A stretch of DNA of 64,000 nt, taken from Cymodocea nodosa. Taxonomy: Eukaryota > Streptophyta > Magnoliopsida > Alismatales > Cymodoceaceae. The notes beneath the pieces are model-generated. The model searched no databases. It saw only the letters and a list, made by a program, of their open reading frames with translations, and was not told where the DNA came from. A program made the position numbers and the translations under genes. The DNA lies in contig CM072342.1 in NCBI GenBank assembly GCA_036874045.1, positions 6,532,501-6,596,500 of the forward strand. Direction: 5' to 3'. Shown here piece after piece: positions 18,578 to 54,132 of the stretch (position 1 is its first letter; each line of letters begins with the position of its first letter).

Positions 18578-18582
18578 GAGAC
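18578..18582. repeat. target-site duplication of A, left copy (GAGAC)
   Basis: Identical to 54128-54132 right of A's 3' LTR. Across the two copies D's integrase sequence is continuous. Confidence 0.9.
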
Positions 18583-20514: not shown

Positions 20515-20521
20515 AGTTTTC

Positions 20522-20540
20522 TAGCATCGTTGTCGGGGAA
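20522..20540 (+). promoter_or_regulatory. primer-binding site of element A (tRNA-Asp type)
   Basis: TAGCATCGTTGTCGGGGAA matches the TGGCGCCGTTGCCGGGGAA site of Athila elements with four changes, all C/T or G/A type. Confidence 0.85.
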
Positions 20541-20620
20541 CTGAGTATCTAAGAACCTATGAGTGTTGTTCTGTTTTAACAGTTGAGGAGTGTTGTGTGT
20601 TATATTTTCTAATTGAGAAT

Positions 20621-28719: not shown

Positions 28720-28745
28720 AGTTTTATGGCGTCGTTGCTGGGGAA
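28654..28745 (+). promoter_or_regulatory. true primer-binding site of B preceded by two PBS-like copies in the LTR edge
   Basis: Three consecutive segments start AAGTTTT: 28654-28686 (TAGTACGTTGCTGGAGA), 28687-28718 (TAGTGTCGTGCTAGGTA) and 28719-28745 (TGGCGTCGTTGCTGGGGAA). The third is the functional-type tRNA-Asp PBS and lies outside the LTR. The first two are inside it. The 3' LTR (44965-45038) repeats the first two, proving they belong to the LTR. Confidence 0.85.
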
Positions 28746-28820
28746 TTAATATAAGCAACTGTTAGAGCTGTTTTGTTTTAATAGCCAGAGTGTTGTGTGT
28801 TTTCTTTTGTGATTGAGAAT

Positions 28821-29530
28821 ATGGCATATGCTCATATGAGTATTGGTTTTGAGCAAAGTAGTTTCTATTTCTGCCACAAATTCTTAAAAAGTTATCTGAT
28901 CTTGGAATCCCTGTTATATTATGCACCATAGGAAATACCATTCTAGAAAGAACCTTAATAGACTTAGGTGTAGGTATAAATGTTATGTCAGGTGATATAT
29001 TTGCATCCTTAGGATTAGAAGGCTTAACTCCTACTAGTACAGTTATTCAATTAGCTGATAGAAGTATAAGATACCCTAGAGGAAAAATAAAAGATGTCTT
29101 AATTAAAATCAAAAACTTTATATATCCTATTGATATTGTAATTTTGGATTCCCAACAAATTAAGCATAGAAATAGTGATACATCTTTAATTTTGGGAAGA
29201 CCATTTTTAGCAACATTAGGGGCTGTTATAAATTGTAAAACTGGAGTAATGAAGTTAGCATATGGTAATGAGGATACTCAACTAAATATTTTCAAACTAG
29301 AAAGGTTTGAGGAGTTAGAAATGTCCTTACATACTATAGACTTTTTAGAGGATGAATGAGATATGTTAGATGATGTGATTCAAGAAGAATTAAATAGGCA
29401 AATCAATTCTGAAACTTTAGAGGAAAGTGAAAGCATAAATATAGAAGGAAATCTGGAAGAAATTAATTTAGAAAATGATGATGTTCAATTAGGAGCTCTA
29501 GCTTCTGATCGGCAACATTTAGAATTAAAA
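28821..29530 (+). pseudogene. B: protease part of gag-pol with deleted nucleocapsid region
   Basis: ATG 28821 gives MAYAHMSIGF, matching A's start, then joins directly to a segment equivalent to A at 21.70 kb. About 1.05 kb (zinc knuckle, coiled linker, ITLRSG) is missing. The protease LIDLG (Asp codon 28961-28963), INVMSGDIFASLGLEG and LILGRPFLAT are intact. A one-base loss near 28865 shifts the start out of frame with protease. The first in-frame stop is at 29357-29359. Confidence 0.9.
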
Positions 29531-32419: not shown

Positions 32420-32990
32420 TAAGAAATTAGTTTTTATTTTATTTTATTTTCATATAAAAAAAAAGAATTTTGCGGTTCAATCGACTAGATCCATCGGTAT
32501 GACCGGAACGAAAAAAATCTATATTGATTTAAAACAAAAAATAAATAAATAAATTTGGTTTTACAGAAACATAGTATCAGTTCAATAGGAAAAAAAGTTG
32601 GTCTGATCGAAACATAGTATCGGTTAAACTGGTAAAAACTAAAAAAAAAAAACTATTATCTTAAGTTTTTTTTTATTTTTTTTATTTTATATATATCTGT
32701 TTGTATGGGAAGTCTGTTGAGTTACGCTTAGTCAACGAGCTTATTCCGTTGAGTCTTGAGTTAGTCAACGAGCTTATTTCGTTGAGTTAACTGTAACTCA
32801 ACGGAGTACTGTAGCTAAGACCATAGATGAGAGAGCAAGAGTTGATTCGGGAAATGACCCAATTACCCGCCTATAAAGTTAGGGCTTATTTAAACTAAAA
32901 CCTAGGGTTTTGGGGGCATTATCCGACAAACCATTTAGAATTTAAAACAGTAGAGATCAGAGCGATTCTGTGCCGTTGTGTAACTCCACG
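32420..32990 (+). promoter_or_regulatory. B: spacer with palindromes and TATA box before env-like ORF
   Basis: Contains CGGTTCAATCGA-type boxes (32470-32640), CGTTGAGTTA/TAACTCAACGG palindromes (32715-32808), TATAAA at 32872-32877 and the telo-box-like AACCTAGGGTTTTGGGG near 32901, then ATG at 32991. This layout looks like a plant core promoter and leader within the retroelement. Transcription from it is an inference. Confidence 0.6.
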
Positions 32991-35223
32991 ATGAGGAAGA
33001 TGACACCCAAGTTCTAGGAAGATGCAATGGACACAACACAGTTTCTAAAAGAGTTAGAGGAATGACACACGTGGCAGAAGATTCGGAACACGATAAGAGA
33101 GAAAGAGCTACAAAAGGTAGAATCAGAACTCTTCAACTTGAGGAAATTTTTGGTTGATTTGGGTATACAAATACCCCAGATAGTAGAAATAAAAATCAAA
33201 ATAGCAATAGAAATTGCTTTAAGTAAAGAAAGAAAAATCAAGCCGAACAATGAAGTAGCCCTAGAGTTAATCCAGCGCAAAGTTAAATTATGGTTCAAAA
33301 AGCACATTGCTGGTCGTGCAAGGGGTGCAATAAGGTGGTAGTAACAAGTAGAGGAAGAACAGGAGGAGCCAACTGCTGAAAGACATGTTCTTGAGGAACA
33401 GCAGCCAGGACCTTCAATTCCACCATTTAAGCCGTTGGCACGAGCAGCAATGTTGGGGCCTTTGATTGAAAAAGAATTAAAAGAATTTCAAGGACAGGTT
33501 CAAGTTGGGAAAAACCAAGGAGAACCAGAAGATTTAGTAGTAGCCAAAGCACATCTGCTGTTTGATGCACTACGCAAGAGGAGGGCTATAGAAAAGTTGA
33601 AAGCCCAATATAAAATCAAAGTAGAACAACATCAAGAAGCTACTGCTAGAACTATTGTCAGATTTGTTACAGGAGAAGCTGAAGCTAGTCCCTTGAGACT
33701 AGCAAATATTGAAAAAATTAAACAGGAAGAGCCAGTACCTGTGGCTTAAAGGCGTGCAGAGCCTTTGTTTTTAGATTTAATCTTAGAAGAAGAAGAGGAA
33801 GACCAGGTACAATTAATCAAACGAAGGAAAGGAAAAGAGATAGTGCCTGAATGTCAAAAGGAGATTAAATCTGAAGTACCAATATCAATAGGGCATGTGG
33901 AGCCAATTTTTATAAACCTGCTTTCCGATTCTGAGGAGGAGCAGGAGCAGCAACAACAAGAGCAAAGAGAAGAAGAAAATCAAGCTGAAATTAGTCTACA
34001 ACTTGTACAAGAAGAAGAAATAGAAATTAGGGCAGAAACTGAATTGCCCATGACTCCATCCCAATCTGCCACAGAATCAGAAAGAACAGTGACAGAGTAG
34101 ATTGGTAGTCAGGAGGAAGAAGAAATAACAGAAAATGAACAAGAAGCTAAACAAAGCCATTTGGACAAAAATGACTTTGCAGATTCCACTGAAGAGCAAG
34201 AAACTCTTCAGCAATTTATGGAAAGAATTCAAGATAGAATGTAGACTTCTGACAACTCACCACCACAGACAAAAGTAGAAGCAAATTTTCAGGAATCTGT
34301 AGAACATGTTCAAGTTCAACCTATGGTAGAAGAAGATCAAGAGCAAACCCCTCTAGAACAACAAAGTCACATTCTTGACCCAACTGAAGCAACAATTCTG
34401 AATGAAGTACATTTTTGGAGTCAAAAAGCTTATAATAAATATCAAGAGATTAGGGGTTATGATATTATATACAGTAGACCAGTAAATTAGGACGGAATGC
34501 AAGAAATCAAAGAATTATTTGAATTCCAAGGTCTACTAAATTTTATTTCTCAAGAAAGAGGGCATGCAGTATATGAGAATTTAGTGCCCTGCTTTTATGT
34601 AAACTTAAGAGAAGAAGAAGGAAAATTAATTTCCAATGTGGAGGAAGCTGATGTATAGATAACACCAAAGCTTCTCCACAACATTTTTGGATTAAAGAAT
34701 GAAGGATAAGAAATTTTGGAAAGTACAATTGTCGTTGAATGGATAGAGCAGGAAATCAAGGACAGTTTGGCTATCAATCCTAGTGTGCCATTATTAAATA
34801 GGCTGAAGCATTTAAATGATAAAGCACACATGATAGCCAACATTTTGATTAAGAATGTCTATCAACGACAAGGCCGTGACAGAACTAAGTCAATTTGTCA
34901 AATGAGCCACGTATGCAGTTGTAAATAGAATTCAAATAAATTGGTCTGTAGTTTTTATCTCCAAGTTGAGAACAGTAAAGAAGAAATTATTTTATGGAGA
35001 TTTGATTCCATTGCTGATGGTGGATTGTATCGATTTCACTAAATGGGCATCAAAAAGGATCAGATCAAGAAACATTTCAGTGAAAGAGTACAGGAATTTT
35101 GTAGCTGTAGAGATTGCTGCACCTTCTAGAGGCATTACAAGAGCTGTAGAGAGAATTAACCAATTAGAGCTACCATTAGAAAAACTCCAGAAGGAAGTAG
35201 ATGAACTTAGGAATAGAGACTAA
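32991..35223 (+). pseudogene. B: env-like ORF with plant-transposon-protein-like domain
   Basis: About 740 codons. The N-terminal third is charged (ELFNLRKFLVDLGIQIPQIV). The middle is very rich in E and Q. The C-terminal third has W-stop-DGMQEIKELFEFQGLLN, GHAVYENLVPCFYVNL, ITPKLLHNIFGLK and later YGDLIPLLMVDCIDFTKWAS. This matches the pattern of the 'putative plant transposon protein' domain that follows pol in Athila elements; its role is unknown, and 'env-like' is only a positional label. No signal peptide or clear transmembrane helix is visible. Stops: 33015-33017, 33063-33065, 33339, near 33748, 34098, 34488-34490, plus a frameshift near 34900. Confidence 0.75.
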
Positions 35224-36110
35224 ATTGTATTGTTCGTCTACTTTTATATATTTATATGAAAAATATCTGATTCGATTGTATTGTAATTGATTCATATTAA
35301 TGAATATATATTTTTCAGATATACTTTTCATGCGTGTTTAGAATGATGAAATGGATGAACTATATTGAATGTTATATAATTTATGGAACATTATGAATGA
35401 ATGTTTAATAGATTTACAGTTTGCTGAATGATAGGATTAAAAAATAGAATCTTGAAAATATCAACATGCTGCAAGGTAAAATATAAATTCTGCATAACAT
35501 GAAATGAACTGCAAGTTAAATATTTATATAATGTTCAGATTTAAATGAATTTTGATTAGAATGTTGCATTAATGGCATATATTTAACTTTATTTCAGTTA
35601 GCAGAACGAAGTAAGTTCGTTGAGTTAAACTTAACTCCACGAGGTTAGTAATATAATATAAGGTCACTCCGTTGAGTTATTTGTAATTCAACGAAATTAG
35701 TCTGTGGAGTTAGTAATAGTAACCGACATTGTTCCGTTGAGTTATCTGTAACTCAACGAGGTTAGTTCGTGGATTAAGCAGAACAGTTATTCTTTTAACT
35801 ACGAATGAAACTTTGTTGGTTTAGCGGTTACCAAAATTTGAAATTAATAGTGGTGCACGTACCTATAAAAACAGGAACCACGATGCACGTTGCAAGACAC
35901 GTTCTTGCAACGAGATTTATTTACTTTATGGATGTGCATTATATATATATAATAGAATTTTATTTACGAGTTACCAGCACTTTTAAAAGAAAGGAGAAGA
36001 CGTTGGGGGAACTGGAAGGAGAAGCAACTGATTCGACTTCATCCGTCAACAAATATTTACTGAATGGAAAGCTTCAAACTGGTATGTAATTAATCTTCTA
36101 CTATTTATTT
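35224..36110 (+). promoter_or_regulatory. B: spacer before capsid ORF, palindromes plus TATA box
   Basis: CGTTGAGTTAAACTTAACTC, CCGTTGAGTTATTTGTAATT and CCGTTGAGTTATCTGTAACT blocks (35610-35775) precede GCACGTACCTATAAAA (TATAAAA 35864-35870) by about 100 bases. A (TA)n lies at 35940-35951. A sequence conserved with A ends at a splice-donor-like GTATGTAAT (36082). ATG of the capsid ORF is at 36111. Confidence 0.55.
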
Positions 36111-37453
36111 ATGAGCACATAGACTCGTTCTCTGAGCACTGAAGGATTAGTAAGAACACCTAACCAGAAATATTCAACACAGAGGCGTATTGAAACATTT
36201 TCTGAACTTGACTTTAACGAAATTCTTTGGGGTGTAGCTAACCTTTCTTTAAAAGAGAACGTAGAGATGGCTGCTCCAGTAGAAAAACCATTAGGAGAAA
36301 TTCTGTATCCTAAATTAGTTGATGAACCTTCATGTATTTGATTGCCAAACTTTGAGGGAAATAGGTTTGAACTGAAATCTAATTATATTAGTCAATTGCC
36401 ACATTTTCATGGATTAGAAAGAGAGGATGCCTATTATTTCCTTAGAGAATTTAACGAAGTTTGTCAAATGATGAAAATGTCGAACATGAGTATAGATGCT
36501 ATTAAACTTAGATATATCCCTTTTGCTTTAAAAGACACAGCTAAGAGATGGTTATATACTCTATCGCCTGATTCAATTTTTGAATGGACTGAATTTTGCT
36601 CTATTTTTCTGGAAAAATATTATCCAACGCATCAAACGATTAAAAAGAAAAAAGAAATATTAATGTGTAGTCAAAAACAGGTGAATCATTCTAGAAATAT
36701 TTTGAAAGATTTAAAGATTTACTGACTCAATGTCCACATCATGCAATGAGTAAAGCATAATTAATAGGTATAATTTATGAAGGCATAGATGTTTCAACGA
36801 AATCTTTATTAGAATCTACTTGTCAAAATGGATTTCTAAAACTATGTAGTGAAGAAGCATTGGCATATTTAGAAAACTTTGCAAAAAGAACTGCATAGTG
36901 GGAAAACTCGGCTGAAGCTATAGTAGATAAAAGAATATTGCCAAGAGGAATGCATGAAATAGATTCAAGTACTATGCTTGAAGTGAAATTAACTGAATTA
37001 ACAAAGAAAATAGAAGAGTTATCATTAAATCAAAAGCTAGTAGAAAAGAATGCAAACATTAATGATTTAGATATTATTTATGCTAGAAACCAGAAAGATA
37101 GTTTTGGAAATTCTTATAATCCTAATTGGAGAAATCACCTGAATTTATCTTGGAGAAATAATAATTTCCAGGGAGGAGAAAATGTAAATGAGAAGAATAT
37201 AAGTTATGAAGCATTACTTGAACAAGGATCTAGAATAGAGAAATTAGAAAAGATAATCCAACAATTAAACAATCGTCTGGATTTTGTATTTGGAAATGCT
37301 GCAATTCAAAATCAGAATAGAAATATACCACTTAGACAGAAGGAATCAAAGGAAGTTAGACCCACTAGAGGATTGCCAATACAAGCAATACCTAACCCTG
37401 TCAATAGAACTGTTAATGAAATTGATATCTGTTTTGGGAGGATAGCTGAATGA
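36111..37453 (+). pseudogene. B: capsid-type gag ORF located downstream of pol and env
   Basis: The retrotransposon-gag domain is clear: LPHFHGLEREDAYYFLREF, IKLRYIPFALKDTAKRWLY, FCSIFLEKYYPTHQTIKKKK, and later NSYNPNWRNHLNLSWRNNN, which corresponds to the YNPGWRNHPNFSW landmark of Athila gag. A coiled-coil-prone LLEQGSRIEKLEKIIQQLNN follows. No zinc knuckle is present. Stops at 36339-36341, 36758-36760 and 36896-36898 match those of A; a one-base deletion near 36680 shifts the frame. In ordinary Athila elements this domain precedes protease. Confidence 0.88.
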
Positions 37454-37637
37454 AGCAGTATAACTAAAGTAAATATATATATATAAGTTTATTTATAGTT
37501 AATAGTATCGTAGAGTTAGTCCTTAACTCAATGAACTTAGTCTGTTGAGTTATGCCCTAACTCCACGAGGGTGTGCAGTAGGTATATTAATTTTTGTCTC
37601 TGCTAAAATTTTTATTTGTATTATACAAAATTAACAA

Positions 37638-38774
37638 ATGGAATTGATGTTATTACCGTTGGATGCACTAAGGGAAGTACTGAGTAACTTGTCAGCTAAA
37701 GATCTATGCAGGCTGTGTTGTGTATCAAAGAAAATTAAAGACTGTGTTGGAGAAAAATATTTTCATGGACTATAAGCTGCAAAAATGACTAAGATTAGAG
37801 ATGGATTCATATGGAAGTCATTTAATCGTAGTTCAATTACCCATGAATATCTGAATATGGAAGAAACTATTGGAATTCCACCCAATACATTAGAAGGAAT
37901 AGATCATATTATGGGGATGGATGAAGGATTAATCATGTACAGGACCAGACCAAGGTATGCAAGTCTATTACCTGATATTTTGATAAAAAATCCTATCACA
38001 AGAGAAGAATGGAATATAGGAAGACCTAATAGATATGAAGTACCAACTATAAATTGTGGGTTGGCTTTAATATTTTCTGATAAAAATTCTACCATTCTTG
38101 AAAAATTATATTATTGGAGACCTACAGGAAATTGGGATGAAGATTTATGCTTGAGTGTGTATAATTTTCTGAATAGATCTTGGACTGAAAATACTATGAT
38201 ATATCTAGGATAGAAATCATTAATTAACAACATGCATGTCATACTTGATGGATATATATATCTTGTCACAGATATATCAGTTTCATTTAGATCTGATTTA
38301 TACATAGTAAGCATAGATAGTTATGATGAATATATAGAAATTTTGCCTATACCGAGAGAAATAGCTAAACCACCATCTATAGAATTTGATAAAATTCAAA
38401 TAGGGATGTAGTATAATGAATATGATGATCCTACTTTATGTCTGATAAGATGGTGGGATGAATTGATGAAATTTCAAGTAAGGATTATGAAAGACATAAA
38501 TGAATGGAAGTGGGAAGAGGAATATGTTGAAATAGATGTAGAAATAGAAACTGCTACATTATCTTGGAACCGAAAAAGATCCCTTTCTGCATTTCATTTC
38601 ATTAATGATAATACACTTATATTTAGCATTGATAATATATTGCAAGTTTACAAATTAAGAAGGAACAAGAACTGCATTAAAATAGAATTAATAGCAAGAA
38701 GAATTATACCTAAAAAGTTTGCTTGGACTGACATGTTTATTCCATTTGTTTCTACTTTTCAATCATGTTCTTAA
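37638..38774 (+). pseudogene. B: F-box protein ORF carried by the retrotransposon
   Basis: 378 codons plus stop from ATG 37638 in one frame. The N-terminal F-box reads LPLDALREVLSNLSAKDLCR then LCCVSKKIKDCV (about residues 6-38). The rest fits an F-box-associated domain: NPITREEWNIGRPNRYEVP, YYWRPTGNWDEDLCLSVYNF, HVILDGYIYL, LCLIRWWDE and the terminal FIPFVSTFQSC. F-box proteins are the substrate adaptors of SCF ubiquitin ligases. Three in-frame stops (near 37772, 38211-38213, 38409) disable this copy. Same length as the copy in A. Confidence 0.88.
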
Positions 38775-40498
38775 GCTGTGATTTTGTGTGTTTAATGTTG
38801 TGTGTATTCTACATTTAATTTTTAAAAAAAAGAAAAAAATTTAGTTTTAATTTTATTTTATAAAAAAAAAAAAACAAAATATCAATCCAGTTTGTTGGTA
38901 TCTATTCTAGGAAACCAACTGGCTTGCTTGTGAGCCACCAAAGGCATAGGAGCTTGGGTTCCACACAAGACATTGATTTATCAATATCTGTTAAATGTTA
39001 TTTTGTTATATATTCTGCTTTTATCTGTGAATGAAAAGTTTTTCAGAATCAAAAATCGGAATACGCAGAAGGAGATACAAACGAAACAAGGTATGTAACT
39101 GATTACTTATCCTAAATTTAGATTTAAACTCATTCGTTGAGTTAGGTGTTAAATCAACGAAACTGTATTCATGCCTGCTATAATTATTGCATTTATTGTC
39201 AAATCTTTTACATTGAGGACATTGCAAAATGTAGGTATGGGGGGAGGTAATTAAAGTAACAGCCATGTAAGTTTGTTAATTAAAGGAATTAAAATGGTAC
39301 TACAAAGTTTTATGGAAATTGAAAATTTTTATGAACTTGCTGTAACTATCTGATAATTGAGACTATAAAATTTTTATAAACTATAACTGCTTCAATGTTT
39401 ATGCAAATCTAGATATAGTATCTTATGTTTTTCTGAATTTCATGAGTTTAACAGTTTCACGATTTTAAAATGAAATCAGAATGCTTAATGAAAAATCAGT
39501 AAATTATCTGAAGTCCTGAAGGAGCTGAAATATGAATTCTAGATTAAATGAAACACATATGATTAAAGATACATTTAATTTGACTGATTAAACTTGTAGA
39601 ATGATTTATGTGTAGATCTTATTAAACTATAGAAAAAGTATGAGCTTATTGTTATGGATTCATATTTTCAGTAAATGATAGAAGCAGGACTATATGAGAT
39701 TGGTGTTTACTACATCTATATTAATGAAATACGTACATATACAGTATGTGATTAATGTTTTTGTTGTGATTACTTTAAAAAAAAAAAAAACTTTAAGAGT
39801 TTATTGACTTGTTTGATCACAAGCCTTTTGTACTTGAGCAGATAAGTATGTAAGGATTGTTAACCTGAAAAAGGACTCTTGAAATCTGGCAACCTAAGAT
39901 CCTAATCAGATTTGAGATTGTTGATTGAAAGCTCGTTACATGGGTACATTAGAAAGCTCTTGTATGATTCAAGCTTGTTAAATTAACTTTTAAAGTACAA
40001 AAATACATATACTGTTCTGAAAAGATACAAGTGTTTTGTGAAATACAGATATCTTATTTATCGAGTATATTTTCTGTTATTTAGAATTGCTGAAATATGA
40101 ATCTAAAATTGACTTTTGAAGTTGTTTTAATGGAAATACAATTCTTTATTCTACTTGTCTTAATTATATTGAATTGGATTGTACTTTGATTCGTATGTTG
40201 TTGAAATTTCTTCTAGAATTCTTATTGGATAATTCAGGATGACAAATGATGAAAAGAAGAACAAACGATAATATAATTAATACCTATGTGATGATGATAT
40301 ACTTTGTATGTAATTTGCATATATTCTAAGTATATTTGCAGGTTGATTACTGAAACATACAGAATATCTATATAATAATACAAGTTCTTATGTTGAACAT
40401 AAGAGAAAAAGGAAGAATTAATTGTAGCACTTTTAGAAAGACCAATTAATGAGATCTTAGTTTGCTAAGGGACTAGCAAAATTTAAGTATAGGGGAAG
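38775..40498 (+). other. B: conserved 3' noncoding tail and polypurine tracts
   Basis: No ORF. Shares long blocks with A's tail: AACTGGCTTGCTTGTGAGCC (near 38919), a donor-like AACAAGGTATGTAA (39085-39098), the Athila-type phrase CATTGAGGACATTGC (39211) with a G-rich run GGTATGGGGGGAGG (39234-39247), and TTGACTTGTTTGATCAC (near 39803). The functional PPT AAGTATAGGGGAAG (40485-40498) abuts the 3' LTR. Confidence 0.8.
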
Positions 40499-41878
40499 TG
40501 TTTAGAATGACAAAGTACATAATATTAACGGTTAAAAGATGGTTAATTGCATAATATTTAGCTTATCATATCAAAATTAAGCCATTATGTTATAATTGTA
40601 CTGTTATAAGTTTTAATTAAAGAATCTACTTAATTTCGTGGAATTAATGTTAATTTAGCACATTTCTAAACTGTCAGTAGATTACAGGCTGTGAAATTCT
40701 TAAGTATCCAAATTTTCTGTTATTTCGGACAGTTATGCTTAATGTACTGAAGAGTTATGTTTAAATTACCGAACAGTTATGTTTTAAAAGAATATTTTAT
40801 TATTTCCTGAAATACACGTGTCGAAACCATAATGCATGACTTAAGTGAACTTTTGGTGAGTTATTTATAACTATCCGAAATTGCAGCTACGCATCGAATA
40901 GTTATATGTGTAACTCTCTGAAATCTCCTTTTATTTATAAAATAGCTGTGGACACGTGTCATGTTCTGGGAAAGTGACTTAAGTGGATTTTCGGTGAGTT
41001 ATCTATAACTATCTGAAATGCATCTAGGCATTGGATAGTTAGACCTGTAACTTTTCGAAATGTTTCTTTTATTATTAAACTGTTGCTGACATGTGTCGTG
41101 ATCTGGTAGATTTACTTAAGTTATATATCGGTGAGTTATCTGTAACTATCCGAAATGCATCTGAGCATCGGATAGTTAAGTCTGTAACTATCCGAAATGC
41201 ACCTGAGCATCGGATAGTTAAATTTATGCACGTGTTTTATAGTTAAATCAACAAAGCAAGTCCGCTGAGTTATCTGTAACTCCACGGACTATTTATTTTC
41301 TAATATGGCACTGTAGCGGTTGCAGAAATAGGACAGTTGGAATGAAAAACCATGATCGCACGTATCACGTAGGAATTCACTCGTTGAAGGGAGAAGAAAT
41401 CATCGTCGTTGATATGAATGAAGGAAATTCAACCGACCATTTAAGCAAAAGCAGTTATCACTGAAGAAATATAAAAGAAAAGAAGAAAAAGAAGTAATAT
41501 GTGTGATCGATGGGTGTGGCCAGTGTGTGGAGGAGCACCGAGCTTTCTGCAAGCAGTGTCAGCAATTCTCTGAAGTACCACACCAACCATCGGAGGTCTG
41601 TGAAGATACTTTCCTGATGTTAGGTCGATTCCAAGCCAAACATAGTGCCTGACAACCACTATGAGGAGTGATCGCGTCGCAGGAAGAGAAGCCATTTTCA
41701 CCAAGCGTCGACTCATATCTCAGGAGATCATAAAGCTTCTAGCCTTGGCTTCGAGTTGATGCTTGTATACTGAAGAGATCATCTTGCAATTCTGGACTCG
41801 CGATTCTATAGGGAGAGAAGACAGAATTGTAAGTGGTTTAATTTTCAGTGGTGTAATCACGTCGCATGTAGTGATAGA

Positions 41879-41883
41879 AGTAT
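41879..41883. repeat. target-site duplication of C, left copy (AGTAT)
   Basis: Matches 44247-44251. The intact B 5' LTR shows AGTATTTACTG at this point with one copy. Confidence 0.9.
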
Positions 41884-44246
41884 TGTTTGCATTTTCCCAG
41901 CACTACACTAGAAAAACTTGGATTTGTTACTTCTGTTTTTACTTAGTTAATTTATCTTTATGCCTATTCTTTTTTTAGAAGTAAATAAACAACCTTTAAT
42001 ACAATTTAGATATTAATTCCAATTTGTATTTTAACTGCAAGTGCATAGTGTCTATTGTATCAGTGTGCATGTATAGGTCGATCCCACAGGGAATTGCTGA
42101 AAAGTTTAGAACTGTTCGTTTGTTAACAATCAAGTTTATATATTCAATAAGCTCTCCGTTGAATTACAGTTAACTCAACGGATAAAGTTTGTTGAGTTAT
42201 GGCTAACTCAACGGACTAACCTCGTGGACTTAAGTTAACTCCACGAACCTGTCTTTTCCTTTTAATACTGCTATTTACAGAGGAATTCGGCCAACCATTG
42301 GGCGATTCCACAGATTGTAAATAACATCAATTAAGCTCTTTAATGTTAGTAAACACTGGATTTATCATTAAGCAATACTAACATTCAGATAATTCAAACA
42401 GTAACCATTAAAATCTTTAAGTCTTTTGAATGAACCAATTTCAGTAAACTGTAAAACTAAAACAAATATAAAACAATCACAACACTAACAAAAATAACAT
42501 TAATCACGATACAACACAAACAATACAACACTCAAATACAACATACAAATATAGATAAATTTTTTTTGGTATTTTTGTTTTAATATGAACATGGAAATGG
42601 GTGAAAGGTGAAATGTAAAGTAATCTCACTCGACAGTAAATACTTCCGACACTACTTGCAACGCGATTACACCACTAAAAATTAAACCACTTACAATTCT
42701 GTCTCTTCTCCCTATAGAATCGCGAGTCCAGAATTGCAAGATAATCTTCTCTTCAGCATACAGGCATCAACCCGAAGCCAAGGCTAAAAGCTTTACGATC
42801 TCCTGAAATATGAGTCGACGCTTGGTGAAAATGACTTCCCTTCCTGTGACGCGATCACTCCTCACAGTGGTTGTCAACCACTGTGTTTGGCTTGAAATCG
42901 ACCCGACATCAAGAAAGTATTCTCACAGACCTCCAATGGTTGGTGATTATGGTGGATAAGGTGGTGGTAACGATGGTTGGTGTGATACTTCGGAGAATCG
43001 CCGATACTGTCTACAGAAAGCTCGGTGCTCCTCCTCTGTATACATTGGTCATCCATCGATCACACACCCACTTCTTTTTCTTCTTTTCTTTTATATTTCT
43101 TCAGTAGTAACTGCTTCTACTTGAATGATCGGTTGGATTTCCTTCATTCATATTAACGGCGATGATTTCTTCTCCCTTCGACAAGTGAATTCCTACGTGA
43201 TACGTGCAATTGTGGTTTTTCTTCCAATTATCCTGTTTCTGCAACCGCTACAGTGGCATATTAGAAAATAAATAGTCCGTGGAGTTACAGATAACTCAAC
43301 AGACTTTCTTCGTTGATTTAACTATAAAACACGTGCATTAAAGAAATAAGCCGCTAACATAACGCGTTACTTTAGTGTGTATTCATGTAACTCAACGCGT
43401 ACAGTTATGCTAACTTAACGAATTAAACATATGCATCTCATGTGATATACTAAAGCACTTAAATTCAACACGTGCATAAATTTAACTATCCGATGCTTAG
43501 GTGCATTTCGGATATTTATAAACTTAACTATCCGATGCTCAGATGCATTTTGGATAGTTACAACTAACTCACCGATATATAACTTAAGTAAATCTACCAA
43601 ATCTCAACACGTGTCAACAGCAGTTTAATAATAAAATACCCATTTCGGAGAGTTACAAGTTTAACTATCCGATGCTCAGATGCATTTCGGATAGTTACAG
43701 CTAACTTACCGAAAATCCACTTAAGTCACTTTACCAAAACATGACACGTGTACTTAGCTATTTTATAAATAAAAATAGATTTCGGAGGGTTACACATATA
43801 ACTGTCTGATGCCTAGCTGCAATTTTGGATAGTTAGAGATAACTCACCGAAAGTTCACTTAAGTCATGCATTATGGTTTTGACACGTGTACTTTAGGAAA
43901 TAATAAAATATTCTTTCAAAACATAACTGTTCGGCAATATAAACATAACTATCCGACATGTTCAGTCTGTTAAACATAACTGTCCGAAATATGTTCGGTA
44001 TGTTAAACATAACTGTCCGAAATATCAGAAAATTCGGATACTTAAGAATTTCACAGCCTGCAACTTACCGACAATTCAGAAATGTACTAAATTGACATTA
44101 ATTCCCCAAAATTAAGCAAATTCTTCAATTAAAGCATATAGCAGTGCAATTATAACATAATGACTTAATTCTCATATGATAAGCTAAATATTATGCAATT
44201 AACCATCATTTAACCGTTAATAATATGCACTTTTTCATTCTAAACA
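41884..44246 (-). mobile_element. element C: inverted solo LTR of the same Athila family
   Basis: Reads on the minus strand from TGTTTAGAATG (44246 inward) to TGCAAACA (41884). TSD AGTAT at 41879-41883 and 44247-44251. 2363 bp, longer than the LTRs of A or B because it carries both the block unique to A (minus strand of about 43330-43480) and the 137-bp tandem units of B (about 43480-43930). Its outer edge contains one extra primer-binding-like segment. No internal domain: a single LTR left by recombination. Confidence 0.92.
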
Positions 44247-44251
44247 AGTAT
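44247..44251. repeat. target-site duplication of C, right copy (AGTAT)
   Basis: Pairs with 41879-41883. Confidence 0.9.
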
Positions 44252-45038
44252 TTACTGTCAACTGAGATTACTTTACATTTTACCTTTCGCCCATTTCTAT
44301 GTTCATATCAAAACAAAAATACCAAAAACAACTTATCTGTGCTTGTATTTTGTATTTGAATGTTGTGTTGTTTGTTTTGTATCATGATTAATGTTATTTT
44401 TGTTAGTGTTGTGATTGTTTTATGTTTGTTTTAGTTTTACAGTTTACTGAAATTAGTTCATTCAAAAGACTTAAAGATTTTAATGGTTACTGTTTGAATT
44501 ATCTGAATGTTAGTATTGCCTAATGATAAATCTAGTGTTTACTAACATTAAAGAGCTTAATTGATGTTATTTACAATCTGTGGAACCGCTAAATGGTTGG
44601 CCAAATTCCTCTGTAAATAGCAATATTAAATAGGAAAGGCAGGCTCGTGGAGTTAACTTAAGTCCACGAGGTTAGTCCGTTGAGTTAGCCATAATTCAAC
44701 GAACTTTGTCCATTGAGTTAATTGTAACTCAACGGAGAGCTTATTGAATATATAAATTTGATTGTTAAAAATGGAACAGTTCGCAATTCTTAAGCAATAC
44801 CCTGTGGGATCGACCTATACTTGCACACTAGTACAATAGACACTGTGCACTTGCAGTTAAAATACAAATTTGAATTAATATCTAATTTGTGTGAAAGGTT
44901 GTTTGTTTACTTCTAAAAAAGGATTAGGCATGAAGATAAATTAACTAAGTAAAAACAGAAGTTAACAAATCAAAGTTTTTCTGGTGTGTTGTTGGAGATC
45001 CAAGCAAGTTTTCTGGTGTCGTGCTAGGTAACCAAATA

Positions 45039-45043
45039 GTAGC
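45039..45043. repeat. target-site duplication of B, right copy (GTAGC)
   Basis: Pairs with 26534-26538. Confidence 0.9.
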
Positions 45044-46721
45044 TATAACACATCTGGTGTTTGATGCACGGTGCAAAAAGAGGGCTGCAGAAAAGCTGAA
45101 AGTCCAATATAGAATCAAAGTGGAACAACATCGTGAAGCTACTACCAAACCTGTTGCAAAAGGAGATGAAGCTGGTCCTTCGAGACTAGTAATTATAGAA
45201 AAAGTTAAATAGGAAGAGCTAGTACTTGTGGCTCAAAGGCCTGTAGAGCCTATTTTTGTGGATTTAATTTCAAACGAGGAAGAGGAAGACCAAACACAAT
45301 TAATCAGAAAAAGGAAAGGAAAAGAGATAGTGTCTGAATATCACGATGAGATTAAATCTGAAATACAAATGTCAGTAGAGCCTGCAAAGCCAAATTTTGT
45401 AAACCTGCTATTCGATTCTGAGGAGGAGCAGGAGCAGGAGCAGCAACAGCAAGAACAAAGAGAAGAAGAAAAACAGGCTGATACTAGTCTACAGCCTGTA
45501 CAAGAAGAAGAAATAGAAATTAGGGCAGAAGCTGATTTGCCCATAACTCCATCCCAATCTTCCATAGAATCAGGAAGAATAGTTACAATGCAAATTGGTA
45601 GTTTGGAGGAAGAAGAAAGAATAGAACAAGAAGCTGAACTAGTATATATGGAAAGAAATAACTCTACAGATTCCATTGAAGAGTAAGAAACTCTTCAGTA
45701 ATTTATGGAAAGTATTCAAGACAGAGTGGAGTGTTCTGCCGGCTCACCACTACAGATAGAAGTAGAAGAAAATATTCAGGAATCCGCAGAGCATTTTCAG
45801 CAAGTCCAAGTTCATCATTTGGAAGAGGAAGTTCAAGAATAAACCCCTCTAGAGCAACAAATTCATATTCCTGACCCGGCTGAGGCAACAGTTTTAAATG
45901 AAGTATACTTTTGGAGTCAGTAAGCTTATAATAAATACCAAGAGATTAGAGGTTATGATATTATTTATAGTAGAACAGTAAATTAGGACGGAATGCAAGA
46001 AATCAAAGATTTATTTGAGTTCCAAGGTCTACTACAGTTTATTTCTTAGTAGAGAGGGCATGCAGTATATGAGAATTTAGTGCCCTACTTTTATGCAAAT
46101 TTGAGAGAAGGAGAAAGATGATTAATTTTCAATGTGGAGGAAGTTGATGTGCAGATAACACCAGAGCTTCTCCACAATATTTTCGGACTGAGAAATGAAG
46201 GAATTGAAATTCTGGAAGAAACAACTGTAGTGGAATGGGCTGAATAGGAAATTAAACAGTGCATAGCCATCGACCCTGGTGTGCCATTACTAAATAGACT
46301 GAAGTACTTAAATGGAAAGGCACACATGGTCACAATCATACTGGTAAAAACTGTTTATCAAAGACAAGGCCACGGCATTGAACTTAGTCAATTTGTCAAG
46401 TGGGCTACTTATGTAGTTGTAAACAGAATTCAAGTTAATTGGTACAAAGTATTTATCTCCAAGCTGAAAGCAGTAAAGAAGAAATTATTTTATGGAGATT
46501 TGATTCCACTACTGATGGTGGATAGTATTGATTTCACGAAATGGGCATCCAAAAGGATAAGATCAAGAACCATTTCAGTGAAAGAGTACAGAAATTATGC
46601 TGTTGTAGAAATTGCTGAACCTTCTAGAGTAGTTACAGGAGCTGTAGAAAGAATTAACCTATTAGAGCAACAAGTAAAAAGACTCTAGAATGAAGTAGAT
46701 GAACTTAGGAGAAGAGATTAA
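45044..46721 (+). pseudogene. A: env-like ORF, 3' part
   Basis: Continues from 26538. It opens with HLVFDARCKKRAAEKLKVQY, then an E/Q-rich region (FVDLISNEEEEDQTQLIRKR, EEEQEQEQQQQEQREEEKQA) and the C-terminal domain: VYFWSQ, YDIIYSR, N-stop-DGMQEIKDLFEFQGLL, ITPELLHNIFGLRNEG, VPLLNRLKYLNGKAHMV, YGDLIPLLMVDSIDFTKWAS. It ends TAA 46719-46721. Stops are frequent in the middle (45210, 45684, 45841, 45921, 45984-45986). The last 400 bases are open and better preserved than in B. Confidence 0.75.
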
Positions 46722-47703
46722 ATTGTATTGTTCGTCTACTTGTGTACATTTGTATGAAAAATATCTGAGTTATTGTAATTTATACTATTCATATTAATGA
46801 ATGTGTGTTTTTTAGATGTATTTTTCATTTGTGTTTGAGAATGATGAAATGGATGAACTATATTGAATATTATATAATGGTTTGAACAAAATGCAAGATT
46901 GTTTAAAAGATATAGAAATTTCCTAAATGACAAGATTAAAGGCATGTTAACTAATTAATGCTTAAAAATATCTACATGCTGCAAAGAAAAATTTAAATTC
47001 TGCATAACATAAAATGAACTATAAGTTAAATATTTATATAATGTTCAGATTTAAATGAGTTTTAATTAGAACACTGCATTAATGTCATGTATTTAACTTT
47101 ATTTAAGTTGAAAAGAATGTAGGAGAGAAATTTATATATAGAAGTTAATACGAGGAGTAAGTTTAGAAAACCTGCTAAGTGTTAACTCAACGAAGTAAGT
47201 CCGTTGAGTTAACCTTAACTCCACGAGGTCAATAATATAATATAAGGTCACTCCATTGAGTTATCTGTAACTCAACGAAGTTAGTCCGTGGAGTTAGCAG
47301 CAGTAACCGAAGCTATTCCGTTGATTTATCTGTAACTCAACAAGGTTAGTTCGTCGATTAAGCTAAATGGTTATTCTTTTAGCCACGAACGAAACTTCGT
47401 GGGTTTAGCAGTTACTGAAATTTGAAATTAGAAGTAGCACACGTACTATAAAAGTAGGAACCATACTGCACGTTACAAGTCACGTTTTTGCAATGAGATT
47501 CATTTGCTTTATGGACGTGCATTATAAATATAGAATAAAATGTTGTTTACAAGTTACCAGCATTTGAGAAAAGAAAATTCGTTGGGGAATTGGAAGGAGA
47601 AGTAGCTGATTCAACTTCATCTGTCAACAACTATTTACTGAATATAAAGCTTCAGACTGGTATGTAATTAATCTTCTGCTATCTTATTTTATGTTAAGAG
47701 TTT
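46722..47703 (+). promoter_or_regulatory. A: spacer before capsid ORF, palindromes plus TATA box
   Basis: GTTGAGTTA/TAACTCAAC blocks at 47185-47345 are followed by ACACGTACTATAAAA (TATAAAA 47447-47453), the same position as in B relative to the capsid ATG. A donor-like GTATGTAAT at 47660 is conserved with B. The first 400 bases are AT-rich with no other signal. Confidence 0.55.
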
Positions 47704-49053
47704 ATGAGCACATGGATTCGTTCTCCTAACACTAAACGATTAGTAAGAACACCTACATAGGATTATTCAACATAGAGACGTACTGAAAATTTTTCTGAAT
47801 TGGACTTTAATGAAATCCTTAGGGGTGTAACTAACCTTTCTTTAAAAGAGAACGAAGATATGGCTGCTCTAGTAGAGAAACCATTAGGGGAAATTTTGTA
47901 TCCTGAATTAGTTGATGAGCTTTCATGTATTTGATTGCCAAATTTTGAGGGAGATAGGTTTGAATTGAAATCTAATTATATTAGTCAATTGCCACATTTT
48001 CATGGATTAGAAAGAGAGGATACCTATTATTTCCTTAGAGAATTTAACGAAGTTTGTCAAATGATGAAAATGCCGAATATGAGTATAGATGCTATTAAAC
48101 TTAGATATATCCCTTTTGCTTTAAAAGACACAGCTAAGAGATGGTTATATACTCTATCGCCTGATTCAATTTCTACATGGACTAAATTTTGCTCTATTTT
48201 TTTGGAAAAATATTATCCAACACATCAAACGATTAAAAAGAAAAAGGAAATATTAATGTGTAGCCAAAAACAAGGAGAATCATTCTGGAAATATTTTGAA
48301 AGATTTAAAGATTTACTGACTCAATGTCTACATCATGCAATGAGTAAAGCGTAATTGATATGTATAATTTATGAAGGCATAGATGTTTCAACGAAATCTT
48401 TATTAGAATCTACTTGTCAGAATGGATTTTTAAAATTGTGTAGTGAAGAAGCATGTGCATACTTAGAAAACTTTGCAAAAAGAACTACATAGTGGGAGAA
48501 CTCAGCTGAAGTTATTGCAGATAAAAGAATATTGCCAAGGGGAATGCATGAAATAGATTCAAGCACTATGCTTGAAGTTAAATTAACTGAATTAACAAAG
48601 GAAATAGAAGAGTTATCATTAAATCAGAAATTATCACAAAAAAGTGCAAACGTTAATGATTTAGATATTATTTATGCTAGAAACTAGAAAGATAACTTTG
48701 AAAATTCGTATAACCCTAATTGGAGAAATCACCTGAATTTATCTTGGAGAAACAACAATTTCCAGGTAAGAGAAAATATAAATGACAAGAATATAAATTA
48801 TGAAGCATTAATTGAACAAGGATCTAGAATAGAGAAGTTAGAAAAGATAATTCAACATTTAAACAATCGTCTAGATTTTGTATTTGGAAATGCTGCAATT
48901 CAAAATCAAAATATAAATAGAAATATATCCCCTAGACAGAAAGAATCAATAGAAGTTAGACTTACTGGAGGATTGCCAATGCAAGCAGTACCTAACCCTA
49001 TTAACAGAACTGTTAATGAAGTTGATACCTCCTCTAGGAGGGTAACCGAATGA
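47704..49053 (+). pseudogene. A: capsid-type gag ORF located downstream of pol and env
   Basis: Same protein as B at 36111-37453: FSELDFNEILRGVTNLSLKE, LPHFHGLEREDTYYFLREF, IPFALKDTAKRWLYTLSPDS, GESFWKYFERFKDLLTQCL and NWRNHLNLSWRNNN. The G-E-S-F-W-K-Y-F-E-R-F helix is intact here, whereas B has a one-base deletion. Stops: 47758-47760, 47932-47934, 48352-48354, 48490-48492, near 48688 and others. No zinc knuckle. It lies 0.98 kb after the env-like ORF and 0.2 kb before the F-box ORF. Confidence 0.88.
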
Positions 49054-49268
49054 AACATCATAACTAAAGTAACTATGTATAATATAGTAAGTAGAAAATA
49101 AAAAATAAAAAAATGTAAGTTTACTTATAATTAATAGTATCGTAGAGTTATTACTTAACTTAATGAACTTAGTCTGTTGAGTTATGACCTAACTCCACGA
49201 GGGTGTGTAGTAGCTATGTTAATTTTGTCTCTATTAATTTTTGTTTATGTCATACAGAATCGCAATAG
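49054..49268 (+). other. A: short spacer between capsid and F-box ORFs
   Basis: About 215 bases with CGTAGAGTTATTACTTAACT and CTGTTGAGTTATGACCTAAC, a weak version of the family palindrome, as in B at 37500-37570. No TATA box is convincing. Confidence 0.5.
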
Positions 49269-50405
49269 ATGGAATTGATGAAATTACCATTGGACGCACT
49301 AAGGGAAGTACTGAGTAACTTGTCAGCTAAAGATCTTTGCAGATTGTGTTGTGTATCAAAGGATATTAAAGACTGTGTTAGAGAAAAATATTTTCATGGA
49401 CTACAAGCTGCAAAAATGACTAAGATTAGAGATGGATTTTTATGGAAGTTATTTAATCGTAGTTCAATTAGATATGAATATCTGAATATGGAAGAAATTG
49501 TTGGAATTCCACCTAATACATTAGAAGGAATAGATCATATTTTGGGGATGGATGAAGGATTAATTATATACAGAACCAAACCAAGGTATGCAATTATGTT
49601 ACTTGATATTTTAATTAGAAATCCTCTCACAAGAGAAGAATGGAATATAGGAAGGCCTAATAGATATGAAGTACCAACTGAAAATTGTGGGTCAGCTTTA
49701 ATATTTTTTGATAAAAATTTGACCATTCCTGAAAAATTATATTACTGGAGACCTACTGGAAATTGGGATGAAGATTTATGCTTAAGTATGTATAATTTTC
49801 TGAATAGATCTTGGATTAAAAATAATATAATATATCTAGGACATAAAACATTAATTAATAACATACATGTCATACTTGATGGATATATATATCTAGTCAT
49901 AGATATATCAGTTGCATTTAGATTTGATTTATACATAGTAAGCATAGACAGTTATGATGATTTTATAGAGATATCACTTATACCAAGTGATATACCTAAA
50001 CCATCATTTGCAGAATATGATAAAATTCAATTAGGAATGTGGTATAATGAATATAATGATCTTACTTTATGTTTGATAAGATGGTGGGATGAATTGAAGA
50101 AATTTCAAATATGGATTATGAAAGACCTAAATGAATGGAAGTAGGAAGAGGAATATATTGAAATAGATGTAGAAATAGAAACAGCTACACTATATTGGAA
50201 TAGAAGAGGATCTCTTTCTGCATTTTATTTCATTAATGGAAATACACTTATATTTAGTATTGATAATATACTGTAAGTTTACAAATTAAAAAGGAAAATA
50301 GACTTCATTGAAACAGAATTGATAGCAAGAAGAATTATGCCAAAAAAGTTTGCTTGGACTGACATGTTTATTCCATTTGTTACTACATTTCAGTCATGTT
50401 CTTAA
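49269..50405 (+). pseudogene. A: F-box protein ORF carried by the retrotransposon
   Basis: 378 codons plus stop, exactly the length in B. The first 291 codons are open. F-box: LPLDALREVLSNLSAKDLCR then LCCVSKDIKDCV. F-box-associated region: NPLTREEWNIGRPNRYEVPT, YYWRPTGNWDEDLCLSMYNF, NNIHVILDGYIYLVIDISVA, LCLIRWWDELKKF; C-terminus KFAWTDMFIPFVTTFQSCS. Only two stops: TAG at 50142-50144 (expected Trp, EWK-stop-EEE) and TAA at 50274-50276 (Gln in B). Ordinary F-box proteins of this type are 350-420 residues. No retroelement domain is present, so capture from a host gene is the simplest origin. The cellular target is unknown. Confidence 0.9.
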
Positions 50406-52184
50406 AGTATGATTCTGTGTTTTTAATGTTATGTGTAGTCTACATTTATTTTTAGAAAAAAAAGAAAAATAAAAATATCAATCTAGTTTGTTGGTATCTG
50501 TTCTGGGAAACCAACTGGCTTGCTTGTGAGCCACCAAAGGCATAGGAGCATGGGTTCCACACAAGCCACTAATTAACAAGTTATGTTTTGTTGTTATATA
50601 TTCTGCTTTGAATTGTGAATGAAAAGTTTTTTAGATTTAAAAATCAGAAGATATTGAAGGAGATACAAAAGAACAAGGTATGTAATTAATTACTTATCTT
50701 AAATTTACATTTAAACTCAGTTCGTGGAGTTATTCATTAACTCAACGAATTAAGTTCGTTGAGTTAGGGGTTAAGTCAACGAAACAATATTCATGCCTGC
50801 TGCAATTACTATATTTACTGAAAAATCTTTTACATTGAGGACAATGCAAAATGTAGGTATGGGGGGGAGGTAATTAAAGTAACAACCATGTAATTTTGTT
50901 AGTTAGAAGAATTAAAATAGTACTGCAAAAGTTCTAGGGAAGTTGAAAAATTTTGATGAAGTTGCTGCTATAACTATCTGATAATTGAAACTGCACAATT
51001 TTTAAAAAACTGTAATTACTGAAATGTTATATTTATAATCTTATATAAGATGCTACCAATTTTACTACTCATACAAATCTAGATATAGTATCTTATGTTT
51101 TTGCTGAAATTTATGAGTTTAACAATTTCATGATTTTAAAAAGAAATTAGAATGTTTAACTGAAACTCAGTAAATTATCTGAAATCTTGAAAGAGCTGAA
51201 ATGTTGATTTTTGGATTAAAGGAAATACATATGATCAATGATACATTTAATTTGATTGATTAAACTTGTAGAATGATTTGTGTGTAGATCTTATTAAATG
51301 ACAAAAAAAGTATGAGCTTATTGATATGGATTCATATTTTCAGTAAATAATAAGAGCAGGAATATATGAGATTTGTGTTTTATTGCATCTGTATTAATGA
51401 AATACGTTCATATACTGTGTTGAAAAGAAAAAAGGAGGAAAAAAGAGAAAAATTTTGAGAGTTTATTGACTTGTTTGATCACGAGCCTTTTGTACTTGTG
51501 TAGATAGGTATGTAAGGATTATTGACCTGAAAAAGGACTCTTTAAATCTGGCAACCTAAGATCCTGATCAGATCTGAGATTATTGACTGAAAGCTCGATA
51601 CATGGGTACACTAGAAAGCTCTTGTATGATTCAAGCTTGTCAAATTAACTTTTAAAAGTACAAATACGCATATACTGTTTTGAAAAGATACAAGTGTTTT
51701 GTGAAATACAAATATCTTTTGAATCGAGTATATTTTCTGTTATCTAAAATTGCTGAAGTATGAATCAAGATTAGACTTTTGAAGTTGTTTATTTGAGATA
51801 CAATTCTTTATTCTACTTGTCTTAATCATATTGAATTGGATTGTGTTTTGATTCGAATGTATTTGAAATTTTCTCTAGAAATCATATTGGAAAATTCAAG
51901 ATGATAGATGCTGAAAAGAAAAAAATGATAATATAATTAACACCTATGTGATGCTGATATATTTTGTATGAAATTTACATATATTCTAAATATATTTGTA
52001 GGTTGAAGAGAGAAAAAAAACAAAGTTAAAACAGATTACTGAAACATACAGAATATCTATATAGTAATCTAATTTATTATTCTGAAGAAGAGCGAAATGA
52101 AGAATTAAATCTAGCACTTTAGAAAGACCAATTAGTTAGATCTTAGTTTGCTAAGGGACTAGCAACATTTAAGTATGGGGGAAG
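50406..52184 (+). other. A: conserved 3' noncoding tail and polypurine tracts
   Basis: Parallels B's tail: ACTGGCTTGCTTGTGAGCCA (near 50514), AACAAGGTATGTAA (50673-50686), CATTGAGGACAATGC (50833-50847) with GGTATGGGGGGGAGG (50856-50870), TTGACTTGTTTGATCAC (near 51466), and the PPT AAGTATGGGGGAAG (52171-52184) abutting the LTR. No ORF. Confidence 0.8.
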
Positions 52185-54127
52185 TGTTTAGAATGAAAAA
52201 GTGCATAATATTAATAGTTAAATGATGGCTAATTGCATAATATTTAGCTTATCATATGAGAATTAAGCCATTATGTTATAATTGCACTGTTATATGCTTT
52301 AATGAAAGAATCTGCATAATTTCAAGGAATTAATATTAATTTAATACATTTCTGAACTGTCGATAAGTTGCTGGTTTTTAATTCTTTAGTATCTGAATTT
52401 TCTGTTATTTCGGAGAGTTATATTGCATGTACTGGACAATTATGTTTTAAACGCTAAAAGAATATTTAGGTGAACAGTAACAACTCGTTGAGTTACAGGT
52501 TTAAAGGTATAAAAAGATCACGTGAGAACTCGTTGAGTTAGCGAGTAAAAACCTTAAGTTATATATCTGAACTTGTTAAGTTAGATTTATGCACGTGTTG
52601 AATTTAAATGCTTTATTATGTCACGTGAGATGCACATGTTTAACTCGTTAAGTTAGTATAACTGTACGTGTTGAGTTACATGAATACACACTAAGGTAAC
52701 ACATTAGGTTAGTAGCTTATTTCTTTATTGCACGTGTTTTATAGTTAAATCAACGAAGTAAGTTCGTTGAGTTATCTGTAACTCCACGGACCATTTATTT
52801 TCTAATATGCCACTGTAGCGGTTACAAAAATAGGACATTCGAAGGAAAACCATGATTGCACGTATCACGTAGGAATTCACTCATGGAAGGAAGAAGAAAT
52901 CACCATCGTTGATATAAATGAAGGAAATCCAACCGATCATCTAAGTAGAAGCAGTTACCACTAAAGAAATATAAAAGAAAATGAGAAAAGACGAAGAAGG
53001 GGTGGCCAGTGTGTGCGGAGGAGGACAAACCGAGCTATCTACAGGCAGCGTCGGAAGTTCCCTGAAGTACCACACCAACCACCACAACCATCACCACCAT
53101 AATCACCAACCATCGGAGGTCTGTGACGATACTTTCCTGATGTTGGGTCGATTCCGAGCCAAACACAGTGCTTGACAACCACTGTGAGGAGTGATCACGT
53201 CGCGGGAAGGGAAACCATTTTCACTAAGCACCGACTCATATCTCAAGAAAACGTAAAGCTTCTAGCCTTGGTTTCGGGTTGATGCCAGTATGCTGAAGAG
53301 GAGATCATCTTGCAATTCTAGACTCGCGATTCTATAGGGAGAGGAGGCAGAATTGTAAGTGATTAAGTTTTCAGTAGTGTAATCGCGTCGCATGTAGTGA
53401 CGAAAGTTTTTACTATTGATAGAGATTACTTTTACATTTCCACTTTCACCCATTTTCATGATCATATCAAAACAAAAATACCAAAAACAACTTATCTGTG
53501 TTTATAGTTAGTATTTGAGTGTTGTATTGTTTGTTTTGTATCGTGATTAATGTTATCATTGTTAGTATTTTGAATGTTTCATGTTTGTTTAATTTAGAAA
53601 ATAGAAAATAGTTTTACAGTTTACTGAATTAAATCGTTCCTGATACTTAAAGATTTTAATGGTTACTGTTTGAAATATCTGAATGTTAGTGTTGTTGAAT
53701 GATAAATTTAATATTAACTAGCATTAAAGAGCTTAATTGATGTTATTTACAATCTGTGAAACCGCCCAATGGTTAGCCAAATTCCTCTGTAAATAGTAGT
53801 ATTAAACTAGATAGATAGCTTCATTGAGTTACTTCAATTCCACGAGGTTAGTCTGTTGAGTTAGCTATAACTCAACGGAGTGCTTACTGAATATATAAAT
53901 TTCATTATTAAAAATGGAACAGTACACAATTCTACCTCAATTTTCTATGGGATCGACCTGTACTTGCACACAAATACAATATACACTATGCACTTGCAGT
54001 TTAAATACAAATTGGAATTAATATCTAATTTGTGTGAAAGATTGTTTGCTGACTTCTAAAAAGAAATTACTGATAAGCATAAAGATAAATTAACTAAGTT
54101 ACAAATGAAAGTTAACAAACCCAAACA
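52185..54127 (+). repeat. 3' LTR of element A
   Basis: 1943 bp, TGTTTAGAATG to CCCAAACA; aligns with 18583-20514 throughout, with scattered substitutions. Confidence 0.93.
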
Positions 54128-54132
54128 GAGAC
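54128..54132. repeat. target-site duplication of A, right copy (GAGAC)
   Basis: Pairs with 18578-18582. Confidence 0.9.

Follow-up and report, generated by a model that had tools for sequence, protein, structure and literature searches.

An F-box open reading frame and an intronic capsid gene in Athila-like retrotransposons of Cymodocea nodosa

Two nested elements carrying an F-box open reading frame

The 64,000-nucleotide stretch of Cymodocea nodosa contig CM072342.1 analyzed here (forward-strand positions 6,532,501 to 6,596,500; the window) contains two full-length long terminal repeat (LTR) retrotransposons, A and B, each of which carries an F-box open reading frame (ORF). Self-comparison of the window showed that the elements are nested, B (26539-45038) having inserted into A at position 26538 and split it into 18583-26538 and 45044-54127. 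Both lie on the plus strand. The LTRs of A (5', 18583-20514; 3', 52185-54127) are bordered by the target-site duplication (TSD) GAGAC at 18578-18582 and 54128-54132, and those of B (5', 26539-28719; 3', 40499-45038) are bordered by GTAGC at 26534-26538 and 45039-45043; the 3' LTR of B is broken by a minus-strand solo LTR at approximately 41905-44246. In both elements, the remains of the protease (PRO), reverse transcriptase (RT), RNase H, and integrase (INT) domains are followed by a glutamate-rich ORF, a spacer, the capsid gene gag, the F-box ORF, a noncoding tail, and the 3' LTR. The initial annotation of the window described an F-box gene captured by an Athila-family retrotransposon and carried in both copies; the splitting of A by B, the displaced and intronic gag, and the existence of spliced copies as DNA go beyond that description.

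As the initial annotation had stated, the F-box ORFs at 49269-50405 (A) and 37638-38774 (B) each comprise 378 codons plus a stop, lie between the capsid ORF (Retrotrans_gag) and the 3' tail, and are damaged solely by in-frame stops, two in A (codons 292 and 336) and three in B (codons 46, 192, and 258), with no indels. The N-terminal F-box exceeded the curated cutoff of PF00646, with expectation values (E) of 1.1e-10 in A and between 4e-11 and 7e-11 in four open copies. The F-box-associated region that had also been annotated was weakly borne out, by FBA_1 matches below the cutoff (E, 0.055-0.073) in three of the four open copies. Comparison with solved structures gave no useful match, the F-box of FBXO4 appearing at an E of 0.78. 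Between A and B the ORF was 89.8% identical over 1,137 sites with 0 indels, versus 11-22 indels per kb in three adjoining noncoding stretches, and the Kimura two-parameter distance was 0.11 in the ORF and 0.14-0.23 in the noncoding neighbors. Differences within LTR pairs were mostly transitions (98 transitions to 7 transversions in A), as would be expected if decay after insertion were mainly deamination. Transversions, being rare in LTR pairs and thus mostly older than insertion, were therefore used alone to compare the ORFs of A and B, and they gave a nonsynonymous-to-synonymous rate ratio of 0.46.

The gag intron and DNA copies of its spliced form

The capsid gag ORFs of A (47704-49053; PF03732 E, 1.5e-16) and B (36111-37453; PF03732 E, 3.2e-8), both broken, in A by stops, lie wholly within introns. 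The GT-AG intron of A occupies 47660-49257, with the donor GTATGT at 47660 and the acceptor CATACAG ending at 49257; that of B occupies 36082-37628, with the donor GTATGT at 36082 and an acceptor, ending at 37628, that has decayed to CAA instead of CAG. Among 14 copies, the donor directly before the gag ATG was GTATGT in 12 and GTATAT in 2. The acceptor is pyrimidine rich and lies directly before the F-box ATG, the intron ending 12 bases from it. The last part of the spacer (46716-47659 in A) is the exon that is joined to the F-box in spliced copies.

Such copies were found as DNA in the 374.6-Mb genome (element copies outside the window are labeled L0xx). Once near-identical sequences had been removed, 3 of 45 upstream sequences lacked gag and had an exact fusion of the exon to the F-box leader, and the exact spliced junction was present in 5 of 39 full-length F-box copies. 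Genome wide, the junction was found at 205 places with at most three mismatches, 39 of them exact, and the unspliced donor pattern was found at 3,404 places, a rough ratio given that the two search patterns differ; reversed-pattern controls gave 0 matches for both. The presence of the spliced junction as DNA indicates that gag-spliced RNA was reverse-transcribed. Two spliced copies retain pol pieces, the glutamate-rich ORF, and the spacer upstream, which implies that the copied RNA was long and lacked the gag intron only. Two further internal deletions, considered as traces of other introns, were rejected for having no GT-AG ends. In the tree, spliced copies occupied three places: L049 grouped with B of the window (support, 98), L016 grouped with the unspliced L014 (support, 100), and further spliced copies fell within a young clade. 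This distribution could reflect independent splicing events or spread by template switching.

The gag gene was downstream of INT in all elements in which both gag and pol were readable, namely, A, B, and the seven fetched elements L029/30, L031/32, L033/34, L035/36, L037/38, L039, and L045. The PRO-RT-RNase H-INT region of A (21671-24968), broken, matched RVT_1, RT_RNaseH, and Integrase_H2C2, with Asp_protease_2 below the cutoff; the corresponding region of B (28862-32416), likewise broken, was 92.9% identical to it. In L029, two ORFs between the 5' LTR and RT include a protease and lack a gag-capsid domain, and the L030 ORF matched Retrotrans_gag at 2.6e-20. A CCHC knuckle was present in the 5' ORF of A (piece at 20525-20752) and in that of L033, was altered by one residue in L029, and was absent from L037, L045, and the very short 5' region of B; none was found in the nine downstream gag regions (9/9). 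The knuckle in 5' ORFs and its absence from downstream gag suggest that gag was split, with the nucleocapsid part left with pol.

Copy number, selection, and age of the F-box ORF

The F-box ORF is fixed in a retrotransposon family that has thousands of copies. A profile search of the genome with the F-box gave 4,219 first-look candidates, of which 150 were scored, and a DNA search gave 4,670, of which 40 were scored. The F-box places read first, taken from the best F-box scores, comprised 27 distinct ones, 26 of which belonged to this element family; the sole nonrelative, represented by both L005 and L023, was an ordinary-looking host F-box gene. All 20 further F-box places were relatives (18 were listed and two were dropped as identical copies). 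The family was also approached from gag: 20 of the 40 best gag matches in the genome were tested for an F-box. Twelve had an F-box start within 4 kb (16 F-box starts were compared), and of the other eight, six had the F-box starting with its own first base, one had a piece, and one had none in the 701 bases read. The ORF thus stood behind 19 of the 20 tested gag copies, contrary to absence from most family members. Of the 39 full-length F-box copies gathered, 7 were open throughout and 27 had a length divisible by three.

The ORF was carried by both window copies, as annotated, and its capture from a host gene is plausible. Protein searches at E thresholds of 0.001 and 10 found no source gene, in a collection that was seemingly plant poor, and genome searches with the F-box itself were swamped by element copies. 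The FBA_3 and FBA_1 profiles matched neither this genome nor the control genomes and hence were uninformative on this point.

Selection was estimated by fitting pairwise nonsynonymous (dN) and synonymous (dS) distances to a tree of 38 copies, from which L045, the root, was dropped. On internal branches dN/dS was 0.365 (bootstrap range, 0.28-0.49), away from the value near 1 that would have spoken against maintenance, and on terminal branches it was 0.577. In 30 neutral simulations that used this tree, the values were 0.748 for internal branches (standard deviation, 0.103; lowest, 0.553) and 0.716 for terminal branches; stops per copy numbered 2.2, compared with 13.9 under neutral simulation. 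The low internal dN/dS, together with the presence of the ORF behind gag, bears out the earlier proposal that it was maintained while the family was active. Internal dN/dS in context copies was 0.28 across 12 copies of gag and 0.18 across 5 copies of RT. A stronger constraint on the F-box domain (internal dN/dS of 0.19, versus 0.28-0.48) was considered and rejected: it came from a sample picked by F-box score and was gone in ten copies picked otherwise, in which the proportions of nonsynonymous differences (pN) were equal and only those of synonymous differences (pS) differed.

Against L045, the deepest relative compared, the median dS was 0.634 for the F-box, 0.614 for RT, 0.621 for RNase H-INT, 0.488 for PRO, and 0.466 for gag, and the median dN was 0.258 for the F-box, 0.168 for PRO, 0.146 for gag, 0.119 for RT, and 0.097 for RNase H-INT. 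The near-equal dS of the F-box and RT indicates that the F-box has been in the element since that split, old and coinherited. With a dN/dS of 0.38-0.44 against L045, it was still constrained; the F-box is the fastest evolving of the five proteins compared, yet it is under purifying selection.

Several F-box loci had features of their own. When the F-box of A was matched to the genome as DNA, 13 of the 40 best hits were lined up at C2:8752570-9714509, approximately 50-110 kb apart; all are on the minus strand and 93-94% alike, an arrangement that resembles tandem repetition of a large segment. A deeper F-box lineage (63-64% amino acid identity over 182 codons) is present at L002 and L008, which are 98.8% identical to each other, and the DNA adjoining their F-box matches other family loci. 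The places C3:20893634, C26:45275, and C28:34887 had equal scores and an open frame and may be one locus assembled repeatedly; two of them are on 50-kb contigs.

Related systems, alternative explanations, and remaining features

The LTR pair, the TSD, and the RT and RNase H domains preceding INT identify the elements as Ty3/gypsy LTR retrotransposons, and most family members have a sense ORF between pol and the 3' LTR, as do elements with env-like or additional ORFs. The annotated Athila membership agreed with the layout and domains and disagreed with the position of gag, which in Athila is upstream of pol; an Athila-like placement is thus supported by layout and domains rather than by a reference tree. 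One RNase H domain was found in the piece scanned, no model search having been aimed at an additional RNase H, the mark of Tat elements. A primer-binding-site-like sequence starting at 28727, after the 5' LTR of B, resembles the tRNA-Asp type.

The comparisons with published systems draw on passages of the papers cited. A tRNA-Asp-type primer-binding site has been reported for Calypso and Diaspora (PMC1142308). Athila, Calypso, and Diaspora share with the present family a Ty3/gypsy RT, RNase H, and INT, a 5-bp TSD, long LTRs, and extra ORFs between pol and the 3' LTR (PMC1142308, PMC6317226); unlike in those elements, gag is here downstream of pol and intronic, and the F-box ORF stands where env would be. 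Reverse transcription of packaged mis-spliced RNA was proposed as a possible route to an env-less element (PMC1142308), a proposal that concerned env loss, whereas here DNA copies of gag-spliced RNA were seen. Introns and alternative splicing also divide protein expression in BARE1, EVADE, and Ogre (PMC3735527, PMC12786077), but splicing favors Gag in BARE1 and EVADE and removes gag here; amplification from barley DNA yielded no copies of spliced BARE RNA (PMC3735527), in contrast to the 205 places with the spliced junction in this genome. In the AlkB-carrying Gypsy elements of Phalaenopsis, a plant LTR retrotransposon family has likewise fixed a domain of host type and retained it over many replication rounds; that domain is an RNA demethylase rather than an F-box, and the passages drawn on report no intron switch (PMC9289625). 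A review of additional ORFs, a survey of plant LTR elements, and a Retand survey name other domains in the passages drawn on (PMC7264820, PMC6317226, PMC11963269), and the word F-box appears nowhere in the main texts of PMC6317226, PMC11963269, PMC11728184, PMC12786077, and PMC9289625. Literature searches, judged by titles and the starts of abstracts, listed neither an F-box in an LTR retrotransposon nor an F-box gene with gag and env; for an intron-associated gag located downstream of pol, they led to the Diaspora paper (PMC1142308).

We consider it probable that this very abundant Athila-like Ty3/gypsy family has long carried the F-box ORF as an accessory gene in the env position. The sequences show that the ORF evolved under purifying selection, that gag was moved behind pol into an intron, and that the spliced RNA was reverse-transcribed. 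In position and splice signals, the F-box corresponds to a retroviral env gene. Its expression from spliced RNA is indicated indirectly, through the DNA junctions: unspliced RNA would supply the capsid and spliced RNA the F-box protein. This protein is likely an SCF adaptor; the F-box would dock on host SKP1, and the fast-evolving C-terminal part would bring a target to SCF ubiquitination, the candidates being a host factor that acts in silencing or restriction and, alternatively, a protein of the element such as Gag. The anti-silencing use put forward in the initial annotation would be a guess from analogy. P0 of plant viruses and p22 of criniviruses are reportedly F-box-like silencing suppressors; as in the present family, a replicating parasite of plants encodes an F-box motif, but they belong to RNA viruses, not to a retrotransposon. 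As a tentative overall model, the lineage may have been rebuilt as a splice switch, with pol first, the capsid as an intron, and a captured F-box as the spliced product; the F-box may turn the host ubiquitin machinery on a fast-changing defense factor, and leaky packaging of spliced RNA may have spawned gag-less offspring, at approximately 205 places, that rely on the capsid of relatives.

Several observations weigh against the accessory-gene interpretation. All of it is known from DNA sequence, and the E3 role is a prediction from the F-box domain. Most sampled copies were chosen by F-box score, which favors well-kept ORFs. Internal dN/dS was near 0.47 in codons 51-200. The codons of the F-box domain were not clearly better conserved than the remainder: pN in the ten copies sampled without regard to F-box score was 0.073 in codons 1-45 and 0.068 in codons 46-200. 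Tryptophan is common in the F-box motif, and the element F-box lacks the one commonly expected. Structure prediction from the window sequences alone gave a predicted local distance difference test score of 38. No conserved internal promoter was found in the spacer, TATAAAA being present in 8 of 17 spacers.

The ORF could be a passenger, a host F-box fragment transduced by chance and hitchhiking without function, as the broken state of 32 of the 39 full-length copies and of both window copies would allow. This is very improbable, given an internal dN/dS of 0.365 against 0.75 under neutrality (a value below the lowest simulation), the sixfold-lower burden of stops, the lack of indels between A and B beside indel-rich noncoding DNA, and the retention of the F-box in the deep relative L045 at the same dS as RT; in addition, copies from different parts of the tree have their stops repeatedly at the same few codons, as decay after insertion predicts. 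It is likewise very improbable that the gag-less junction is ancestral, gag having been inserted later, or arose by chance deletion and is thus silent on splicing. The case for splicing does come from DNA rather than RNA, but the deepest copies read (L045 and L043/L044) have gag and splice sites, the junction falls exactly at GT and AG, the two other internal deletions do not have such ends, and spliced copies occupy three separate places in the tree.

That splicing happened once and that amplification, together with template switching among copackaged RNAs, then spread its product is a serious possibility, if short of probable: many of the 100 listed junctions have identical letters, and the family copies would be similar enough to recombine. 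Against it, spliced copies have unspliced sisters at three supported positions in the tree, and the exon sequence leading up to the junction tracks each lineage. It is rather unlikely that the F-box protein acts on the element itself, through Gag or INT turnover or copy-number tuning, rather than on host defense. The capsid and the F-box as mutually exclusive products of one intron would fit such a regulatory switch, whereas the dN of the F-box, 1.8 times that of gag, would equally fit a moving host target.

The origin and role of the extra ORFs of plant retrotransposons are mostly unexplained. In this family, the extra ORF encodes a recognizable domain of host machinery, is present in thousands of copies, has a splice signal, and is under selection that could be measured, which makes its function directly testable. 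The spliced DNA copies make visible a long-suggested route by which packaging of spliced RNA deletes a gene and founds a dependent subfamily. Furthermore, F-box gene counts are expected to be inflated in genomes of this kind, as the 26 element copies among the first 27 F-box places illustrate.

The glutamate-rich ORF of A (45044-46715, with its start at 26270-26538, before B) had no Pfam match, and the corresponding region of B (33345-35220) is broken; in L029/L030, L033/L034, and L045, this ORF is absent from between INT and the spacer, and gag and the F-box are retained. The 3' noncoding tail of A (50406-52184) extends up to a purine-rich tract and the 3' LTR. A short sequence, TAACTCAACG / CGTTGAGTTA, frequently arranged as inverted pairs, recurs in the LTRs, the spacer, the region after INT, and the tail (for example, at 47180-47360), and the regions that share it cross-match one another. 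Three imperfect copies of an approximately 32-base unit, resembling primer sites, lie at 28640-28750, at the end of the 5' LTR of B and the start of its internal region.

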